24,821 nucleotides of DNA. Source: a virus. The stretch covers positions 1 through 24,821 of IMG/VR virus record IMGVR_UViG_3300024346_000478, one strand, 5' to 3'. This document shows positions 8,979 to 19,879 of the stretch, one piece after another. Positions within the stretch are counted from its first letter, which is position 1, and the number at the start of each line of letters is the position of its first letter. The translations under genes were made by a program, and so were the position numbers. A model generated the notes under the pieces. That model was not told the origin of the DNA. It made no database searches and saw nothing but the letters and a program-made list of their open reading frames with translations.

Positions 8979-9193
8979 GCAAAGCATTTAATGAAGAGGA
9001 TTATTCAGCACTAAGGGATGAAATCAATAACGATTTAAATCTACCTAGGGTAGAAGATAATGGTTATCGGATGGAATCTTATTTGCCGCATGTTGATAAA
9101 GCAGATATACAAGAAACAGAGGATGAAAAATCTGAACCTATGTATTTAATTTACATAGACTCAATCACAGAAAATTACTTAACTGATGAATAA
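8972..9193 (+). CDS. Small acidic protein of unknown function
   Basis: A 73-residue acidic protein (many Asp and Glu, few hydrophobic clusters) that I do not recognise. Its ATG lies inside the end of the LamG gene (ATGGTAA, seven-base overlap) and its own stop overlaps the next gene, so it is translationally coupled to both. No signal peptide or membrane segment is visible. The position directly behind two fiber genes allows a role as fiber assembly chaperone or attachment partner, but this is only inference from context. Confidence 0.65.
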   Translation: MVSKAFNEEDYSALRDEINNDLNLPRVEDNGYRMESYLPHVDKADIQETEDEKSEPMYLIYIDSITENYLTDE

Positions 9194-9401
9194 ATACGGA
9201 TACATAACAGACAACACCTACGAGGTTACTAGCACAGCTATAACTTGGGACTTTGTTAAATATAACGAAGACGAATCAACAACAGATTTTGTTGGCATCG
9301 AAAGCACAATTGCAATTGATTCTGACAAGGTTGTGATGTTTGAATCACCACAGGCATTCAACGCCTGGAAATACGAATTTCAACCAGAAGAAGACGTCTA
9401 G
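9186..9401 (+). CDS. Small protein of unknown function
   Basis: A 71-residue protein, probably mostly beta: alternating polar and hydrophobic stretches such as YEVTSTAITWDFVKY and TIAIDSDKVVMFESP, then NAWKYEFQPEEDV. I do not recognise a family. The ATG overlaps the preceding gene by eight bases (ATGAATAA). It ends with TAG, one of few TAG stops here, which argues against TAG recoding as found in some crAss-like groups. Possibly an appendage accessory protein, by context only. Confidence 0.65.
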   Translation: MNKYGYITDNTYEVTSTAITWDFVKYNEDESTTDFVGIESTIAIDSDKVVMFESPQAFNAWKYEFQPEEDV

Positions 9402-9403
9402 TC

Positions 9404-9697: not shown

Positions 9698-9759
9698 TAA
9701 GGCTATTAGTAAGTTAAAAATTTATATAAACAACTTACATACTTTATTTAATTACTTCA

Positions 9760-9783: not shown

Positions 9784-10944
9784 ATGGCAGACGATTTATT
9801 TGATGGAGTTCAAATTTTGAACCCAAGGGAGTTAAATCTCAGAAAACAAGAAGGCAATACTGAAAGTAGTATAGAGCCTAAAGAAGAAATAAAAGAAGAA
9901 CCACAGACTTCTGAAGACAATTCAGAAAATGTTTTAGAAGATGGTTTAAAAATGTTAAGTCCTCAGGAGCTAAGAGCTTCTAATAAAGGAGTTAACGAAG
10001 ATAATATAGAAGAAACAAGTGAAACTGTTTCTAATAAAAAAGTTAATGCAAATAATGTTGATATAGACATAAAGGCATTAGCAAGCGTTCTTTCAAATAA
10101 AGGATTATTAGAACTAAATGAGGAAACCTCTTTAGAGTCTGAAGAAGATCTACTTGGCTTAATGGAGCAACAAACTGCTGAAAAGGCAGACTCTATGCTA
10201 GAAGGATGGATTAAAAATCTGCCCCCAAAAGCACAAGCTTATTTAGGTCTTATAGAAGATGGAGTAGATGCTGATATGTCAGTGGGACTTGTAGAAAGTA
10301 AAGCGTTTGTAGAAAATCTATCTGCGCAAAGTCCCTCTGAAGATTTAGAATCTGCTTACAGGCTATATTTATCTAATTTAGGAATGTCGGAAGAAGAGAT
10401 TTCTGAAGAAGTAGAAGAAGCTAAAGATCTTTCTAAACTATCAGATAAAGCTTTAAAAGCAAAACCTAAACTTGTAGCTGCCATTGGCAAGGAAGAAGCA
10501 AATGCTAAAAACGTAATTGCACAGAGAGCTAGGCAAGAACAAGAACAAAGGGATGAGTATATTAAAACTTTAGAAAATAGTATAGAAACCTCTAATGAGT
10601 TAATAGCAGGAATGAAGCTTACCCCAAAGATGAAAGAAAAAATTAAAGATTCTTTTATGATAGCGGTAGAAGAAAAAGACGGAGTTCCCCTAAATCAAGT
10701 TAATGCTAATAGAACTAGAAACCCACAGGCTTTTGACATTCTATTACATTATTATACTCAACTGGGTCTTTTTAATATTAATGAAAAAGGGGTTGCAAAA
10801 CCTGATATTTCGGCATTAAGAAGAAAAGTAACTTCAGATACTACTAATAGTCTTTTAGACATCGTAACAGAAAAACAATCTAAAGGCGAAGTGAGTTCAA
10901 AGACTTCTTCGTTTATAGATAAACTAAGTAAAATAAATTCTTAA
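9784..10944 (+). CDS. Acidic protein upstream of the capsid gene, probable scaffold
   Basis: A 386-residue, strongly acidic, Glu/Lys-rich helical protein ending 19 bases before the major capsid gene. Scaffolding proteins of tailed phages are typically acidic, helical and encoded just upstream of the capsid protein, so this role is inferred from composition and place, not from a recognised domain. The first 85 residues look disordered and carry a duplicated motif: DGVQILNPREL (about residues 6-16) and DGLKMLSPQEL (about 53-63). A helical core spans about residues 105-330, with coiled-coil character near 225-275, and the C terminus is Ser/Lys-rich and may form the capsid-binding end as in other scaffolds. 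It could alternatively be an internal (cargo) virion protein. Confidence 0.62.
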   Translation: MADDLFDGVQILNPRELNLRKQEGNTESSIEPKEEIKEEPQTSEDNSENVLEDGLKMLSPQELRASNKGVNEDNIEETSETVSNKKVNANNVDIDIKALASVLSNKGLLELNEETSLESEEDLLGLMEQQTAEKADSMLEGWIKNLPPKAQAYLGLIEDGVDADMSVGLVESKAFVENLSAQSPSEDLESAYRLYLSNLGMSEEEISEEVEEAKDLSKLSDKALKAKPKLVAAIGKEEANAKNVIAQRARQEQEQRDEYIKTLENSIETSNELIAGMKLTPKMKEKIKDSFMIAVEEKDGVPLNQVNANRTRNPQAFDILLHYYTQLGLFNINEKGVAKPDISALRRKVTSDTTNSLLDIVTEKQSKGEVSSKTSSFIDKLSKINS

Positions 10945-10963: not shown

Positions 10964-12466
10964 ATGTTAAATTTACAGAAGTACCAAGCTGTTGATTACA
11001 GAGGTTTAGTGACAGACAATCACTTTCACTCTTTGTACCAGCAGAAACCACAGCTAATAAGCAATGTGATTAAGCAGATTTATGCAACTGACTTGCATAT
11101 GTCTTATCTAAATTTTTATGAAAAATTCCCTATTGAGTATGTAGACCAAGAGAATGGTTTCTACGAGTGGATGCTACAGGGACAACATGAGCGTAACTAC
11201 CCTCTATTAGATGCTGAAGATTTCTCAGGAAACACAACTTCTGCTGGAACTTTCACTGGAAGTGCAGGCGGTGGCTCAGGTCAATTCTATCTACATTTTT
11301 CTGAAGACTTTGCAGATGTGCATGATGTTCTTTTAGGTGAGCAAGAATATGTTAAAGTATTCGTACAAGAAAAAGAATCTGTAGGTTCTGGCATGCGTTA
11401 TAGAGTACAATTCTTAACAGATGACTCTGATGCGTCTATTCCTGTAACAGAAGAGTTGTTTGTAGGAGCTAAGTTCTCTCGTGATTACAACTTGCAGAAT
11501 GGAACTCTTTCTTATACTGGTTCTTCTCCTAACTTCTCTTCTCCTTTTAGAATGAGAAACCGTCCATCTATGATGCGAATGGATTATGAAGTAGCAGGTA
11601 GTACTATCAACAAAGGTGGAAATGAGCCTCTAGAGTTTGGTTTCCAATTCCCTGATGGTTCTGTAGAAAGTGCTTGGATTAACTACCAAGATATGATTGC
11701 TGATATTCAGTTCCAAAACATGTTTGCTAGAATGAACATCTACGGACAGAAGAACTGGTCAGTTGACAATCGTTACTTACTTTCTGATGAGAAGACTAAC
11801 TTCTCTGTAGAAGCAGGTGAAGGTTTGATGAATCAAATCGCTCCAGGTAATATTCACTATTACAATTCTTATGATCTTGATTGGCATGTTGATTTGCTAG
11901 TTGATATGGGAGTAGGCCGCCTTGAAAGAGGTAAGCGTATGTTAACCATCTATACTGGTGAATTTGGTGCTATCGAAATCCATAAGCAAATTCAGGCTAA
12001 AGCTAACCAATGGACTATCCTTACAATGGATCCAGGATTCTACAGGAAGACTAAGGATACTAATACAGGAAGTGATAATACTTTTGGTTTTGGTGGTCAG
12101 TGGAATGAGTATCAGTCTTACAATGGTGTTAAACTTAAAGTAGAGATTATTCCATTCTTTGATGATGATATTCGATTCAAGACTCGTCACCCAGGTGGAA
12201 ACAAAGGGGTAGTAGAATCTCACCGAATGATCGCTTTTGATTACGGAGGAGATGCTGGTATCAAGCGTATTATGCCTAAGGGTGCTCAGGAAGAGTGGGG
12301 TTATATCTCAGGTCTTCGTGATCCTTGGTCTCCAGGTGGTAAAGGTACTCCTAAGTCTATCGCTTCTGAAGTAGATGGCTACAAGGTTATCCGCGCTAAG
12401 TGGGGAGGTATTAAAGTTGAAGATCCTACAAAGATCGTAGACCTTCGATACAATTATGTTCGTTAA
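10964..12466 (+). CDS. Major capsid protein (HK97-fold candidate)
   Basis: A 500-residue protein that would form the icosahedral shell. Position right after the acidic scaffold candidate and downstream of terminase and portal is the standard one, and the size fits crAss-like capsid proteins. Codon use is the clearest support: by hand count about 17 of 24 arginine codons are CGN, whereas the terminase gene has about 3 of 28, which marks a gene tuned for very high expression. N-terminal residues 1-60 are mixed helical; a glycine-rich loop (SAGGGSGQFYL, about residue 103) and basic segments (MRNRPSMMRMDYEV, about 196-209) follow. No protease or decoration domain is seen. The leader is a palindromic TTAATTAATTAA followed by A-rich sequence, without Shine-Dalgarno. 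Confidence 0.87.
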   Translation: MLNLQKYQAVDYRGLVTDNHFHSLYQQKPQLISNVIKQIYATDLHMSYLNFYEKFPIEYVDQENGFYEWMLQGQHERNYPLLDAEDFSGNTTSAGTFTGSAGGGSGQFYLHFSEDFADVHDVLLGEQEYVKVFVQEKESVGSGMRYRVQFLTDDSDASIPVTEELFVGAKFSRDYNLQNGTLSYTGSSPNFSSPFRMRNRPSMMRMDYEVAGSTINKGGNEPLEFGFQFPDGSVESAWINYQDMIADIQFQNMFARMNIYGQKNWSVDNRYLLSDEKTNFSVEAGEGLMNQIAPGNIHYYNSYDLDWHVDLLVDMGVGRLERGKRMLTIYTGEFGAIEIHKQIQAKANQWTILTMDPGFYRKTKDTNTGSDNTFGFGGQWNEYQSYNGVKLKVEIIPFFDDDIRFKTRHPGGNKGVVESHRMIAFDYGGDAGIKRIMPKGAQEEWGYISGLRDPWSPGGKGTPKSIASEVDGYKVIRAKWGGIKVEDPTKIVDLRYNYVR

Positions 12467-12491: not shown

Positions 12492-13433
12492 ATGGCAGGC
12501 AGTATTACAAATAAAGCAAAGGCTGGGGGACAAGATATCCCTCAGCCAACGCTTAAAAATTTCTTAATAAAAAATAAGATCGTTAAAATTAAACCCGTTA
12601 TAAGGGAAGGTAAATGGGAGACTCTTCTAGATAAAAGAAGAAGAGACGCTTTCATGTATAACTCCACAAAAAGGACTTTTACTTTACCTAACTCTTTAAG
12701 AACAGGTACTCTAGTACAAGTATTGGATGATGTAGAGCTCGTAAAGACTCCTCAATATCCAGACCTTGTAACAGAAAGACAATTTTTTGAAAAACAACTA
12801 AACAGGGATCTTTCCATTTATAATAAAAAGGGAGAGAACTTTTGGTTAGATGATAATATAACAAGAGTAGTTTTAACTAAAGACGGCGAAGAGTTAAATA
12901 TGGAGGATCCTATAGACGTAATTCGTTTTAGGATATTACTAGCAAATAGAGAAACTATTGCAACCTCTTTGACTAGCGCAAAAACTAAACCTACTTACGA
13001 ATTTTATGTAGAAGACGAAGAAGTGGAAACTTCTAGAGAATTAGATATAGCAGAAAAAGAGTCTAAGGCTTTTTCTTATTACAATGAGTATAAGGTAAGC
13101 GGCAATAAAATGCGCAACTTCCTTAAAGTTTCTAACAAAGGATTTAGCCCTGGGGCTACAGACTCTTGGTTAGCTCAAGAAGTATTTAAGAGCTTAAAAG
13201 ATGATTTAGATAAATTTTTATCTATTGTAGAAGACCCATTGTTTGACGACAAGGCATTTGTATACGATGCTGTTAGAGCAGGGGCTTTAGTAAGAAAAGG
13301 CAGAGATTCTTATGTATTAGATGATGGAAGTAAGACTGGAAGTATTTATGATACTATATCATACTTAAACAAACCAGAAAATTCTGCTCTATATAATATC
13401 ATTAAAGAAAGAATTACTAGGACAAATAAATAA
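12492..13433 (+). CDS. Conserved structural-block protein, function unknown
   Basis: A 313-residue basic-to-neutral soluble protein right after the capsid gene. The ATG at 12492 is chosen over the in-frame TTG at 12483 because it has an A-rich leader and the usual spacing. The N-terminal 110 residues contain KIKPVIREGKWETLLDKRRR and TFTLPNSLRTGTLVQVLDD, possibly a small beta domain; the C-terminal half is helical (SWLAQEVFKSLKDDLDKFLS). No signal peptide or membrane segment. Genes in this place in crAss-like phages are conserved virion or assembly proteins, so a capsid-associated or head-completion role is likely, but I recognise no specific family. Confidence 0.72.
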   Translation: MAGSITNKAKAGGQDIPQPTLKNFLIKNKIVKIKPVIREGKWETLLDKRRRDAFMYNSTKRTFTLPNSLRTGTLVQVLDDVELVKTPQYPDLVTERQFFEKQLNRDLSIYNKKGENFWLDDNITRVVLTKDGEELNMEDPIDVIRFRILLANRETIATSLTSAKTKPTYEFYVEDEEVETSRELDIAEKESKAFSYYNEYKVSGNKMRNFLKVSNKGFSPGATDSWLAQEVFKSLKDDLDKFLSIVEDPLFDDKAFVYDAVRAGALVRKGRDSYVLDDGSKTGSIYDTISYLNKPENSALYNIIKERITRTNK

Positions 13434-14226: not shown

Positions 14227-15519
14227 ATGAACTCATCATTGCGATCTGCAAACAACCTTACAAAGGTTATTGTAGCAAAAGGAGCTGCTGCCCACGGTCT
14301 TGCCGACGGAACATCAGTTGCAGGGGGATTAGCTGACGGCATTGTTGCCACAGTTACTCCTGGTTTAAAAACATTCTCTACTCCTGCAGGAGGATTTACT
14401 GCTGTTGCAGCAGGAACTAAATTCCAAATTGTACAGGGTACAGGAGTAGGTAAGCCCCTAATCATGTCTCCTATAATGACCTCAACAAGTTATACACTTA
14501 GTCGCGCTAGATTTAAAGCAGCTACTGAGCAAGTAACATTTATTGGTTATAATGGTTCAACAGGAGCTCTTGATGCAGACACTGCGTCAACTTCTTATGT
14601 TGTTACTTTAGTAATGACTAATCCTAATGAAAAAGACAGAAGTCAGCCTACTCGTGTGTATGGACAGTATACTACACCAGCTTCAGGTATGACTAATGCT
14701 ATTTCTGCATTAGCTTTAGCTAACAGTTTAATCAAAAATTTCTCAACAAAATCAGACGATCTTGTCAAGATTGAGCGTGTAGCCTCTGGAGCAAGTGTAG
14801 CCCCTGGAACAGCTACTAACGGACATACCTTCACAAAAGGATCTAAGACAGTTTCTGTTGCAGATGTTGATGATGCTACTGGCGGAGACGCATATGCTGT
14901 AGGAGATTACATTCGTGTAGGAACTACACTTTCTGATGCTGTTTACGGTATTGCTGCTATAGACACAACAGCTAATACATTAACTCTTGATCAAGCGTTT
15001 CAAGGAGATACTGTAACATTTGCTGCTGACACTTCTGTTAAGCGAGTAGATGCTGCTGCCTTAGGAAACTTTGGTCTTAAGCTTACAGGTGTAGCTAGAG
15101 CTTTTGATGTAGCTTCAAATCGTAACTATTACAAGGTTCGCTTTGTAGTAAGTTTAGGAGAAGTATTCCTTGCAACAGGAGTAACTACTACTACTAAAGC
15201 GCATGAAGGCATCGGAACTCCTAACCAAGTGGCTATGGATTACTACGAGTCTATGGGCTTCCAAGGACAAGGTACAGATACTATCGGAGTTCCTCCAGTA
15301 GCACACCTATCAGTCCCTGCAGCACTTACAGGCGAGTATGGAGTTTTAAATCTCTCTATGAGCAACGCAGTTAGTTCTATAGTGTCTCAATCTAGTCTTA
15401 AGAGTAACTTTATTGTTTATCTTGAGTATTCTGATGGAATCGCAGGTGGAACTGACGATGATGTATCTGCTAACGGAGAAGAAATTGTAGGTAACTCTAC
15501 TCTTACTGATCTCGCGTAA
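14227..15519 (+). CDS. Probable abundant virion protein
   Basis: A 430-residue Ala/Thr/Gly/Ser-rich, beta-rich protein with no membrane segment. By hand count about 8 of 11 arginine codons are CGN, the same bias as the capsid gene, so I infer a high-copy virion component such as an auxiliary capsid or tail-forming protein. Residues about 125-180 read NEKDRSQPTRVYGQY then a helix (ALALANSLIKNFS). Residues about 199-270 look like an inserted small beta domain: KGSKTVSVADVDD, VGDYIRVGT, VYGIAAID and TLTLDQAFQGDTV, a pattern widespread in major structural proteins of Bacteroidota phages. A short Gly/Asp tail (GGTDDDVSANGEE) ends it. Own candidate promoter upstream, structured RNA candidate downstream. 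Confidence 0.65.
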   Translation: MNSSLRSANNLTKVIVAKGAAAHGLADGTSVAGGLADGIVATVTPGLKTFSTPAGGFTAVAAGTKFQIVQGTGVGKPLIMSPIMTSTSYTLSRARFKAATEQVTFIGYNGSTGALDADTASTSYVVTLVMTNPNEKDRSQPTRVYGQYTTPASGMTNAISALALANSLIKNFSTKSDDLVKIERVASGASVAPGTATNGHTFTKGSKTVSVADVDDATGGDAYAVGDYIRVGTTLSDAVYGIAAIDTTANTLTLDQAFQGDTVTFAADTSVKRVDAAALGNFGLKLTGVARAFDVASNRNYYKVRFVVSLGEVFLATGVTTTTKAHEGIGTPNQVAMDYYESMGFQGQGTDTIGVPPVAHLSVPAALTGEYGVLNLSMSNAVSSIVSQSSLKSNFIVYLEYSDGIAGGTDDDVSANGEEIVGNSTLTDLA

Positions 15520-15532
15520 TTAATAATAATTA

Positions 15533-15590
15533 ATGGTCCCCCTCTCTTTATAATCTTAAGTCTGCCAACCATATTTTTTAAGAGAGGGGG
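15533..15590 (+). other. Structured RNA element: 11-bp GC-rich stem, possible pseudoknot
   Basis: In the 100-base gap after the 430-residue gene, CCCCCTCTCTT (15538-15548) is perfectly complementary to AAGAGAGGGGG (15580-15590), giving an 11-bp stem with a 31-base loop. ATGGT just outside the left arm (15533-15537) can pair with ACCAT inside the loop (15568-15572), an H-type pseudoknot arrangement. No T-run follows the stem, so it is not a textbook intrinsic terminator, yet such a GC-rich pairing is striking in AT-only surroundings. Possible roles: terminator or attenuator, 3'-end stabiliser of an abundant mRNA, or a leader of the next gene. Confidence 0.6.
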
Positions 15591-15619
15591 CTATTAGTTA
15601 AAATTTAAAAAATTTAACT

Positions 15620-16201
15620 ATGGCCCTTTCAACTTTAGTATACAGTGCTGAATTAAATACTGCAGGAGACAGTATTTTGTTTTATGATATAACTGGGTTA
15701 TATGATGCTTCTTCCAATACCAAAGGGTATGGATCTCCTAATGAAAATCCTGGGGATGCTACTGCTGCCTCGTTAGTTGTAGTTAATTACCTAGGAGTCA
15801 CAGTAACTACAATTAACTTATTATCTGCTTTAACTGCTTTAGGATCTTCTCCTACTGCAAAAATGTTATTAGCAACAATACCTTGGTCATATGATGATGG
15901 GTATCACAAGTTCACTGTAAATATTACAATGAACACTCCACTACCTTCTTCTAGTTTTAGTACAGAAAAAATTGTACTATCTAACACTTTAACAGCGTTA
16001 AACAAGTTATGGATAAGGGCATTTACAAATGGTAAATGTAGTTGCAATAGCAAAGCATCTAGAGAAGCAATGAGAGCAGAGGTCATTTACAGATCTATAG
16101 AAGGAAATGAAGCAGAAATAACAACTTCTAATGGTGCCAAAATTTTAGAGTTAGCAACTGATGTACAAAACATAGCTAATAATCGTTGTTTAATACCATA
16201 A
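15620..16201 (+). CDS. Small structural-type protein with Ig-like N-terminal half
   Basis: A 193-residue protein: beta-rich N-terminal two thirds (residues 1-120, alternating strands such as SLVVVNYLGVTVTT and YHKFTVNITM) and a helical C-terminal third with paired cysteines (C140 and C142 in NGKCSCNSK) and another near the end (C190, NNRCLIP). A beta domain followed by a helical part with this Cys pattern recurs in Bacteroidota phages next to head-tail genes, where the function is not established. The ATG directly follows a short inverted repeat. The stop shares one base with the next ATG. I infer a virion or tail-assembly role from context only. Confidence 0.62.
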   Translation: MALSTLVYSAELNTAGDSILFYDITGLYDASSNTKGYGSPNENPGDATAASLVVVNYLGVTVTTINLLSALTALGSSPTAKMLLATIPWSYDDGYHKFTVNITMNTPLPSSSFSTEKIVLSNTLTALNKLWIRAFTNGKCSCNSKASREAMRAEVIYRSIEGNEAEITTSNGAKILELATDVQNIANNRCLIP

Positions 16202-17531: not shown

Positions 17532-17557
17532 TATTTTAACTTTAAAATTATATTAAA

Positions 17558-17797
17558 ATGGGATTTTGGGATATATTTAGAACAAGGAACAGATACAACG
17601 AAAAGAACATCGTTGGCTTCTTGTCATTTGCAGTAATGTCATTATTTGCTACAGTAGATATTATCACTGGTATACTAGGTAAAGAATTAGTACACAGTGA
17701 TACTATATTTAACTCATTTGTTATAGTAACACTTGGTGCTTTTGGCATTGCTGAAGCAGGTGCTATATTTGCAGCTAAACAAGAGGCAAAGCCATAA
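17558..17797 (+). CDS. Holin-like two-TM protein
   Basis: A 79-residue protein with two hydrophobic segments, about residues 18-41 (IVGFLSFAVMSLFATVDIITG) and 52-73 (FNSFVIVTLGAFGIAEAGA), a polar N terminus and a charged C terminus, the layout of class II holins, which form the inner-membrane hole that starts lysis. Its neighbours are a small membrane protein, an M15 peptidase and a lipoprotein with a C-terminal membrane anchor, completing a lysis cassette. The leader is A/T-rich. Sequence alone does not prove pore formation. Confidence 0.7.
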   Translation: MGFWDIFRTRNRYNEKNIVGFLSFAVMSLFATVDIITGILGKELVHSDTIFNSFVIVTLGAFGIAEAGAIFAAKQEAKP

Positions 17798-17801
17798 TAT
17801 A

Positions 17802-17969
17802 ATGCCTTTAGTAAAATTGATGTATAACGAAATGAAAGTAGTGTTGATTAATATAACAACACTTGGAATATCTTTTAGTAATCTAGAAATGTCTTTAAAG
17901 ATAATACTACTATCTGTAACTATAGGGTATACACTACATAAATGGATAACCATTAAAAGTAAAAAATAA
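17802..17969 (+). CDS. Second small membrane protein of the lysis cassette
   Basis: A 55-residue protein starting MPLVKLMYNEMKVVL; the frame is open further upstream, but this ATG follows the preceding stop by four bases and is the natural start. One membrane segment lies at about residues 31-47 (LKIILLSVTIGYTLHKW), before a basic tail (ITIKSKK). A weaker hydrophobic stretch (about 12-24) precedes it. One-TM proteins with a GYTxxKW motif are common in Bacteroidota phages near lysis genes, with unknown function. It might be an antiholin or second holin component, by position. Confidence 0.58.
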   Translation: MPLVKLMYNEMKVVLINITTLGISFSNLEMSLKIILLSVTIGYTLHKWITIKSKK

Positions 17970-17972
17970 AAA

Positions 17973-18892: not shown

Positions 18893-19879
18893 ATGGCAGA
18901 CTCTAAAATTAAAGCCGTCGTAAAAGACGCTATAAAAAAGTATTCTAAATTAAATAATACTGATCTAGGAAAACTGTTAGCAAAAAAATACCCTAAGATA
19001 TTTTCTAACCCAGAGGCAGCAAGAACATCTATTAGGTACTATAAAGGAGCAAGTGGTCCTAGCAGTAGAATACATTCCTCTGTGGAGTATTCTAAATTAA
19101 GCAATGCTAAGATCTTAGTATTTGATATAGAAACTGCGCCACTTATATCGTATCATTGGAGAAGATGGCAACAAGATATTCATGGAGGACAAGTAATTGC
19201 AGATAACTGGCCTATACTAACATGGTCAGCTAAGTGGTTATTTGACAATAAAATCCATTCTATGAAGATGACGCCTAAAGAGGCTATTAATAGAAATGAT
19301 AAAAGGGTAGTACAAGGGCTGTGGAACATGATAGATGAGGCAGACATACTTATAGCCCACAATGGAATTAAGTTTGACGTAAGAATGATGAATGGTAGAT
19401 TTTTCTTAAATGGAATAACGCCTCCTTCTTCTTATCAAATTATAGATACTCTAAGAGCTGCAAGGAAAGCTATAGCAGTGCCTTCGTATAAGTTAGACGA
19501 CCTTGCTAAGTACTTAGGACTAGAGACAAAGATTAAAACTGACTTCTCTTGGTGGAAGAAATTTATGGAAGGAGATCAGGATGCTATAGACAAAATGCAA
19601 ATTTATAACGACAAAGACGTTGAAATACTAGAGGAAGTTTATTTTGCCCTAAGACCTTGGATTAGGCCTCATCCTAATTTAGGATTATTTGTACCTCATG
19701 GAGACTCTGTATGTCCTGCATGTGCAAGTACAGAATTATCTATAATAGGGGAATACGCAACCTATGTAAATTTATACGACGAGTATAAGTGCGGCAACTG
19801 TGGACACACTTCAAGAAGAAGACAGTCTACTACCCCTGTACGTTCAAATAAACAAATAACAGTTTCTATTCCTAAATAA
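18893..19879 (+). CDS. DEDDy 3'-5' exonuclease with C-terminal zinc ribbon
   Basis: A 328-residue nuclease of the DnaQ/RNase H-like DEDD superfamily, which removes nucleotides from 3' ends using two metal ions. Exo I is FDIET (Asp78, Glu80), Exo II is AHNGIKFD (Asp162) and Exo III is YNDKD (Tyr238, Asp242), the DEDDy form. The N-terminal 65 residues look like a small helical nucleic-acid-binding module (DLGKLLAKKYPKIF, then PEAARTSIRYYKGASG). The C terminus has two Cys pairs, C274-x2-C277 and C300-x2-C303, typical of a zinc ribbon, and a basic tail. It most resembles stand-alone YprB-type exonucleases, not a polymerase proofreading domain. All metal ligands are present, so it should be active. 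Nine bases separate it from the spanin gene; its place among virion genes is odd. Confidence 0.85.
   Translation: MADSKIKAVVKDAIKKYSKLNNTDLGKLLAKKYPKIFSNPEAARTSIRYYKGASGPSSRIHSSVEYSKLSNAKILVFDIETAPLISYHWRRWQQDIHGGQVIADNWPILTWSAKWLFDNKIHSMKMTPKEAINRNDKRVVQGLWNMIDEADILIAHNGIKFDVRMMNGRFFLNGITPPSSYQIIDTLRAARKAIAVPSYKLDDLAKYLGLETKIKTDFSWWKKFMEGDQDAIDKMQIYNDKDVEILEEVYFALRPWIRPHPNLGLFVPHGDSVCPACASTELSIIGEYATYVNLYDEYKCGNCGHTSRRRQSTTPVRSNKQITVSIPK

Follow-up and report, generated by a model that had tools for sequence, protein, structure and literature searches.

A conserved RNA hairpin that closes the head-gene block of an aquatic crAss-like phage probably acts as an internal antisense brake on helper proteins of capsid assembly, as suggested by the complementarity of its loop to the starts of two genes of the same block. 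With good confidence, we regard a 3'-end antisense RNA that represses two assembly genes and spares the capsid gene as the best explanation of the data. We also think it rather probable that the hairpin belongs to an undescribed family of phage regulatory RNAs, in which the terminator hairpin of the virion block would also serve as an antisense RNA with two target sites, adjusting during assembly how much scaffold and gp33 is made relative to capsid protein, the loop and its targets co-evolving across an aquatic crassvirus lineage.

The hairpin, its genomic context and its conservation

The whole analyzed stretch, hereafter the window, comprises 24,821 nt and corresponds to positions 1 to 24,821 of the IMG/VR virus record IMGVR_UViG_3300024346_000478. 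It is a fragment of a crAss-like phage, as judged from the Crass_capsid major capsid protein (MCP; Pfam E 5e-84; gene 10964..12466, plus strand), the crAss ring protein 3/4 and the weak crAss_AuxCP match (E 0.0059, under the Pfam cut-off) that it encodes. Gene positions were assigned by synteny with crAss001 and from the structural atlas (PMC10172136). The MCP gene is immediately preceded by a putative scaffold gene at the gp31 position (9784..10944, plus strand), a name inferred from gene position and acidic composition, and immediately followed by a gp33-like gene (12492..13433, plus strand). The gene with the sub-threshold crAss_AuxCP match (14227..15519, plus strand) is, also by crAss001 synteny, the putative auxiliary capsid gene of the gp36 position. 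By the same synteny, the next gene is the tail-hub gene (gp38 position), and the hairpin lies between the two, within the intergenic segment 15520-15619 and thus in the auxiliary capsid 3' untranslated region. The MCP was the sole match to named phages, which showed no DNA or protein similarity to the genes flanking the hairpin, and no relative was found in the bacterial genomes searched. The window is densely coding, apart from two stretches of more than 400 nt without a clear gene (8979-9403 and 17532-17972).

The first-pass annotation had described a perfect 11-bp stem with a 31-base loop at this site, and both the letters and the folding bear this out. The sequence CCCCCTCTCTT (15538-15548) and its perfect complement (15580-15590) are separated by 31 nt, and these arms are the sole sites of that sequence in the window with one mismatch allowed. 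The region 15500-15620 folds at -29.2 kcal/mol, compared with -16.5 +/- 3.2 kcal/mol for its dinucleotide shuffles (z -4.0; 0/200 as stable). The helix is actually longer than had been noted: beyond a bulged U15537, a lower stem pairs TAATTAATGG (15527-15536) with CTATTAGTTA (15591-15600), and the whole hairpin comprises about 21 pairs (15527-15548/15580-15600) with that one bulge. On the plus strand it thus consists of a 5' arm (15527..15548), a 31-nt loop (15549..15579) that is unpaired in the fold and forms a conserved alignment block, and a 3' arm (15580..15600). No T-run follows the 3' arm, as had been correctly stated for the window. The GC-rich stem directly followed by a U-run that defines an intrinsic terminator is lacking in the window and in its nearest relative, L004, and the location at the end of a gene block is that of a terminator. 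Rfam 15, searched at gathering and relaxed thresholds, returned no credible family for the hairpin.

Two further sequence features adjoin or overlap the hairpin. An AT-rich second inverted repeat (TAGTTAAAATTT / AAAATTTAACTA, 15595-15620) comes immediately after the hairpin, reaches the start codon of the gene at 15620 and is not conserved in L004. In addition, GGCTATTAGT with an AT-rich tail occurs both at 15589-15611, in the hairpin 3' arm, and at about 9700-9730, some 80 nt upstream of the scaffold start, and may be a shared promoter-like or processing motif.

L004 is syntenic with the window (MCP 74% identical) and retains the hairpin stem. In the lower stem, both bases of one pair have changed (U-A to C-G), whilst pairing in the upper stem is preserved despite alterations in its sequence and length; this covariation count, coming from two sequences, proves little alone. 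The loop motifs UUAAGUCUGCC(A/G)AC and AUUUUU are identical between the two phages. This comparison also bears on the second stem proposed initially, which would turn the hairpin into an H-type pseudoknot between ATGGT (15533-15537) and ACCAT (15568-15572). The letters are indeed present and complementary in the window; however, ATGG is already engaged as the top of the lower stem, and L004 has neither ACCAT nor a matching partner, whereas it keeps the competing lower stem with one pair altered on both sides. On these grounds the pseudoknot was rejected, and we consider it highly improbable.

At the gp36 site, the hairpin found in crAss001, phi14:2 and Fpv1, and in the majority of some 30 additional loci (MCP 28-34% identical), is compact, has a short unconserved loop and is usually followed by a U-run; it stands just after the same gene and is, in most other Crassvirales examined, an ordinary intrinsic terminator. 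A different hairpin occupies this site in the aquatic lineage to which the window belongs (MCP 50-75% identical), sampled here as 29 non-redundant loci. The conserved loop letters of this lineage are GCUGUC in a sister clade and CUGCC in the window clade, which is formed by the window, L004, L101 (= L022) and L102 (= L025). Sister-clade hairpins have a stem of the type AGUAGCCUGYCAC/GUGRYRGGCUACU, a loop with UUUGCUGUC and a U-run after the hairpin, and a single-stranded element, e.g. UAAUUCUCCAACCC, lies just upstream (the 5' element). Window-clade loops are longer, and the U-run is present in L102, weak in L101 and absent from the window and L004. L174 is intermediate, with GCUGUC within a 7-nt loop. 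A second terminator-like hairpin is found between the MCP and gp33 genes in the sister clade (L107, L110, L134, L155, L161 and others), and none in the window. A scan of viral contigs for the loop motif returned no genuine element beyond those of L004 and of the phage of the window itself (L012, contig 3300009086_000055); six other matches were rejected, there being no such hairpin at those places.

Selection on the structure was evident in the sister clade, where 98% of the cells in 16 distinct hairpins pair. The compensatory changes that the first-pass annotation had proposed to look for in homologues were found in the main stem of these hairpins, 7/13 pairs being altered on both sides (18 cells), a result equaled by 0/500 shuffles, and slid structures failed the same covariation test. 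A covariance model trained on the 16 sequences gave one sense-strand match per locus in 42 loci (the 16 are among them and match by construction), in each case immediately downstream of the auxiliary capsid gene. Across 796 kb, its remaining matches were confined to the mirror strand of these hairpins. As judged from this covariation, the hairpin with which the head-gene block ends is, in this lineage, a conserved structured RNA. The functions suggested at the outset, i.e. an attenuator, a 3'-end element or a structured small RNA, thus pointed in the right direction with regard to a late-block terminator site and a conserved structured RNA; what they overlooked is that the loop is complementary to the start regions of genes from its own block.

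Complementarity of the loop to translation starts

When exact complements of the intergenic region were scanned against its own locus, the loop complement fell on gene starts. The scaffold leader of the sister clade reads (A)GACAGCAAA-AUG, as does the gp33 leader in many genomes, and the window-clade complement coincides with the start codon region, i.e. AUGGCAGAC in the window and L004, AUGGCAGAA in L101 and CGAUGGCAGA in L102. The complementarity is 8-12 nt long, and the hairpin and its targets are on the same strand. In the window, the anti-start core GUCUGCCA (15560..15567, plus strand) is complementary to UGGCAGAC at the scaffold start (9785-9792), these 8 nt lying within a predicted duplex of -16.1 kcal/mol with the start region AUGGCAGACG, which ranks this first predicted target 2/21 among the starts. 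The start region of the gp33-like gene, AUGGCAGGCAG, is the second predicted target (-15.2 kcal/mol; rank 3 of 21), and the MCP gene between both targets reaches just -3.9 kcal/mol, with no pairing predicted. The strongest start for the loop in the window is that of a DNA-polymerase-type exonuclease gene (18893..19879, plus strand; start AUGGCAGACUC; -16.9 kcal/mol), a possible third target that is predicted from this single window. A GACAGCAAAAAT site after AT (ATGACAGC) recurs in homologous genes of L181 (G004 near 48923) and L182 (G005 near 33399), where it might represent one more target or else an internal methionine.

The same preference was observed along the lineage when a fixed 20-nt loop core was ranked by RNA duplex energy against all the starts of each locus (7-21 starts). 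The scaffold start was among the top 3 in 26/27 non-redundant loci and the gp33 start in 22/27, and the MCP start was usually low-ranked. In the five loci that missed gp33, the 5' element pairs with the gp33 leader instead (rank 1-2). Such element and leader pairs are UUUUUCUCUCG with CGAGAGAAAAA in L155 and UUUUUCUCCA with UGGAGAAAAA in L160. Local compensation was also detected, the loop AAUUGCUGUCU of L138, L139 and L143 being accompanied by the leader AGACAGCAAUU. According to these duplex predictions, the loop is complementary to the scaffold and gp33-like translation starts and not to the intervening MCP gene. The large loop of L102 contains a second stretch (12270-12289) complementary to early gp33 codons (duplex -23.8 kcal/mol), as if an anti-gp33 element had moved into the loop.

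Several controls were applied to this matching. Shuffling each loop 400 times per genome and summing the energy over the scaffold and gp33 starts gave 0/400 shuffled loops as strong as the native one for the window, L004 and L102; the test reached p < 0.05 in 24/27 loci, with L125, L155 and L174 falling short. When loops were swapped between clades, those of the window clade scored -14.9 kcal/mol with their own scaffold starts versus -5.8 kcal/mol with sister-clade starts, and those of the sister clade -14.2 kcal/mol with their own versus -9.2 kcal/mol with window-clade starts. The MCP and auxiliary capsid leaders were weak in every combination. These values indicate that the loop and its targets, as read from duplex energies, change together between clades.

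Permuting the partners among genomes gave a comparable picture, although the genomes are related and the figures are therefore guides rather than exact probabilities. The loop scored -14.70 kcal/mol with its own scaffold leader versus -12.18 +/- 0.45 kcal/mol with permuted ones (0/20,000), and in the sister clade the 5' element scored -12.97 kcal/mol with its own gp33 leader versus -10.92 +/- 0.41 kcal/mol (0/20,000), its values with other gene leaders ranging from -3.8 to -6.9 kcal/mol. Inside the sister clade, where the loop is nearly uniform, own and permuted loop values were about equal (1.3% for scaffold, 46% for gp33). The sequence GACAGCAA is rare genome-wide: ten long contigs contain 37 occurrences, about half of which belong to the loop or to the leaders of scaffold and gp33, and the others are mostly inside coding sequence. 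The window-clade complementarity is weaker proof than that of the sister clade, because its target overlaps AUG-GCA, a common start, and the pairing in the window, taken alone, is suggestive only. The antisense proposal rests on the lineage and above all on the sister clade, most targets of which are untranslated leader.

These data bear on the simplest alternative, namely that the hairpin is an ordinary intrinsic terminator, or a stabilizer of the auxiliary capsid mRNA at its 3' end, that has degenerated in the window and whose complementarity to starts is accidental. The same site carries a terminator in most other Crassvirales examined, and the U-runs of the sister-clade hairpins fit this function, which may well be true in addition to an antisense role. 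A terminator, however, has no need of a conserved loop, and here the loop is the most conserved part and the stem is variable; moreover, the window and L004 have lost the U-run yet retained the hairpin and its loop, and neither the pairing statistics nor the switch of the loop between clades would be expected. As a complete explanation we therefore judge it unlikely.

A stable stem with a conserved loop is also typical of protein-binding hairpins, and GACAGCAAA stands in the leaders and, inverted, in the loop, as would befit a double-stranded DNA site (an operator or a recombination core) used in both orientations. Nevertheless, a fixed site for a phage or host protein, or a fixed DNA site, would not switch from GCUGUC to CUGCC along with two separate gene starts, and it offers no reason for a 5' element that covaries with the gp33 leader, so that a binding or DNA site appears very unlikely.

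The proposed antisense brake and its relation to known systems

In the antisense mechanism that we propose, the hairpin RNA would be made once transcription has run through the auxiliary capsid gene, and it would then be freed by termination or processing or act while still within the mRNA. Its loop would pair with the scaffold and gp33 start regions and block ribosome loading, and the outcome would be a lower synthesis of scaffold and gp33 relative to the capsid protein. In the sister clade, the hairpin with its U-run would be terminator-like and carry the antisense loop as well, and the 5' element would provide a second antisense site complementary to the gp33 leader. As no U-run follows the hairpin in the window and L004, there is no clear sign of a free RNA in this branch, where the loop might act from a processed 3' end or inside a longer transcript. 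The text of the crAss001 virion atlas makes no mention of gp31 or gp33 (PMC10172136), which is compatible with both being assembly factors that need to be limited.

The same complementarity data could also be explained if the pairing is real but takes place inside one long mRNA, from the 3' hairpin to starts 3-6 kb upstream, or if it serves mRNA stability or activation instead of repression. The missing U-run of the window and L004 agrees with a loop that stays in a longer transcript. On the other hand, the terminator-like hairpin between the sister-clade MCP and gp33 genes implies that scaffold and later genes need not share a transcript, and pairing at a start codon normally represses. We consider these variants possible, though less than probable, and retain repression by a 3'-end antisense RNA as the preferred reading.

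The proportion of scaffold to capsid protein in lytic phages is mostly credited to promoters, to the strength of translation and to feedback by proteins. In the present case, which concerns an abundant phage order, this proportion appears to be set by an RNA that closes the head-gene block. The antisense reading predicts exact base-pair changes, and it suggests searching further phage terminators for loops that could pair with start codons in the operon they belong to. Antisense regulation from operon ends is already known; in the openly accessible literature, it is apparently undescribed for phage head operons, and no earlier report of antisense or small RNAs of crassviruses was found there.

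The scaffolding protein of phage P22 is autoregulated post-transcriptionally, the protein itself being the regulator. The two cases share a post-transcriptional limit on the scaffold, exerted by a protein in P22 and, as proposed, by an RNA here. The gp36 terminators of crAss001, phi14:2 and Fpv1 occupy the same genomic position, and the sister-clade hairpins also have a U-run; those terminators, however, are compact with short unconserved loops, whereas the lineage of the window has a long stem or a conserved antisense loop. OOP and sar of lambdoid phages are likewise phage antisense RNAs against phage genes, but they come from the strand opposite their targets and match them perfectly over a long stretch (PMC12197685); the hairpin, on the same strand as its targets and with about 8-12 nt of complementarity, does not belong with them. 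The C4 RNA of phages P1 and P7 also derives from the transcript region of its target and uses short separate loop elements that pair near the ribosome-binding site, but it folds into three stem-loops, undergoes cleavage by RNase P and governs immunity (PMC5320573). The element described here is a single hairpin directed at head genes, gave no Rfam match to C4 and was not assigned to that class.

The closest working analogue of the hairpin would be OppZ of Vibrio cholerae, an operon-end (3') RNA that base-pairs at the start of oppB without affecting oppA, and for which RNase E processing and Hfq dependence were established by experiment (PMC7398697). As with OppZ and CarZ, an RNA from an operon 3' end would act on the translation start of a gene located earlier in that operon, only some genes being affected (PMC7398697); the hairpin lies in the 3' untranslated region of its own block and is, by prediction and covariation, complementary to starts of that block. 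The differences are that the present system is known from sequence alone, that its anti-start letters are placed in a hairpin loop, and that its predicted targets are virion-assembly genes of a phage.
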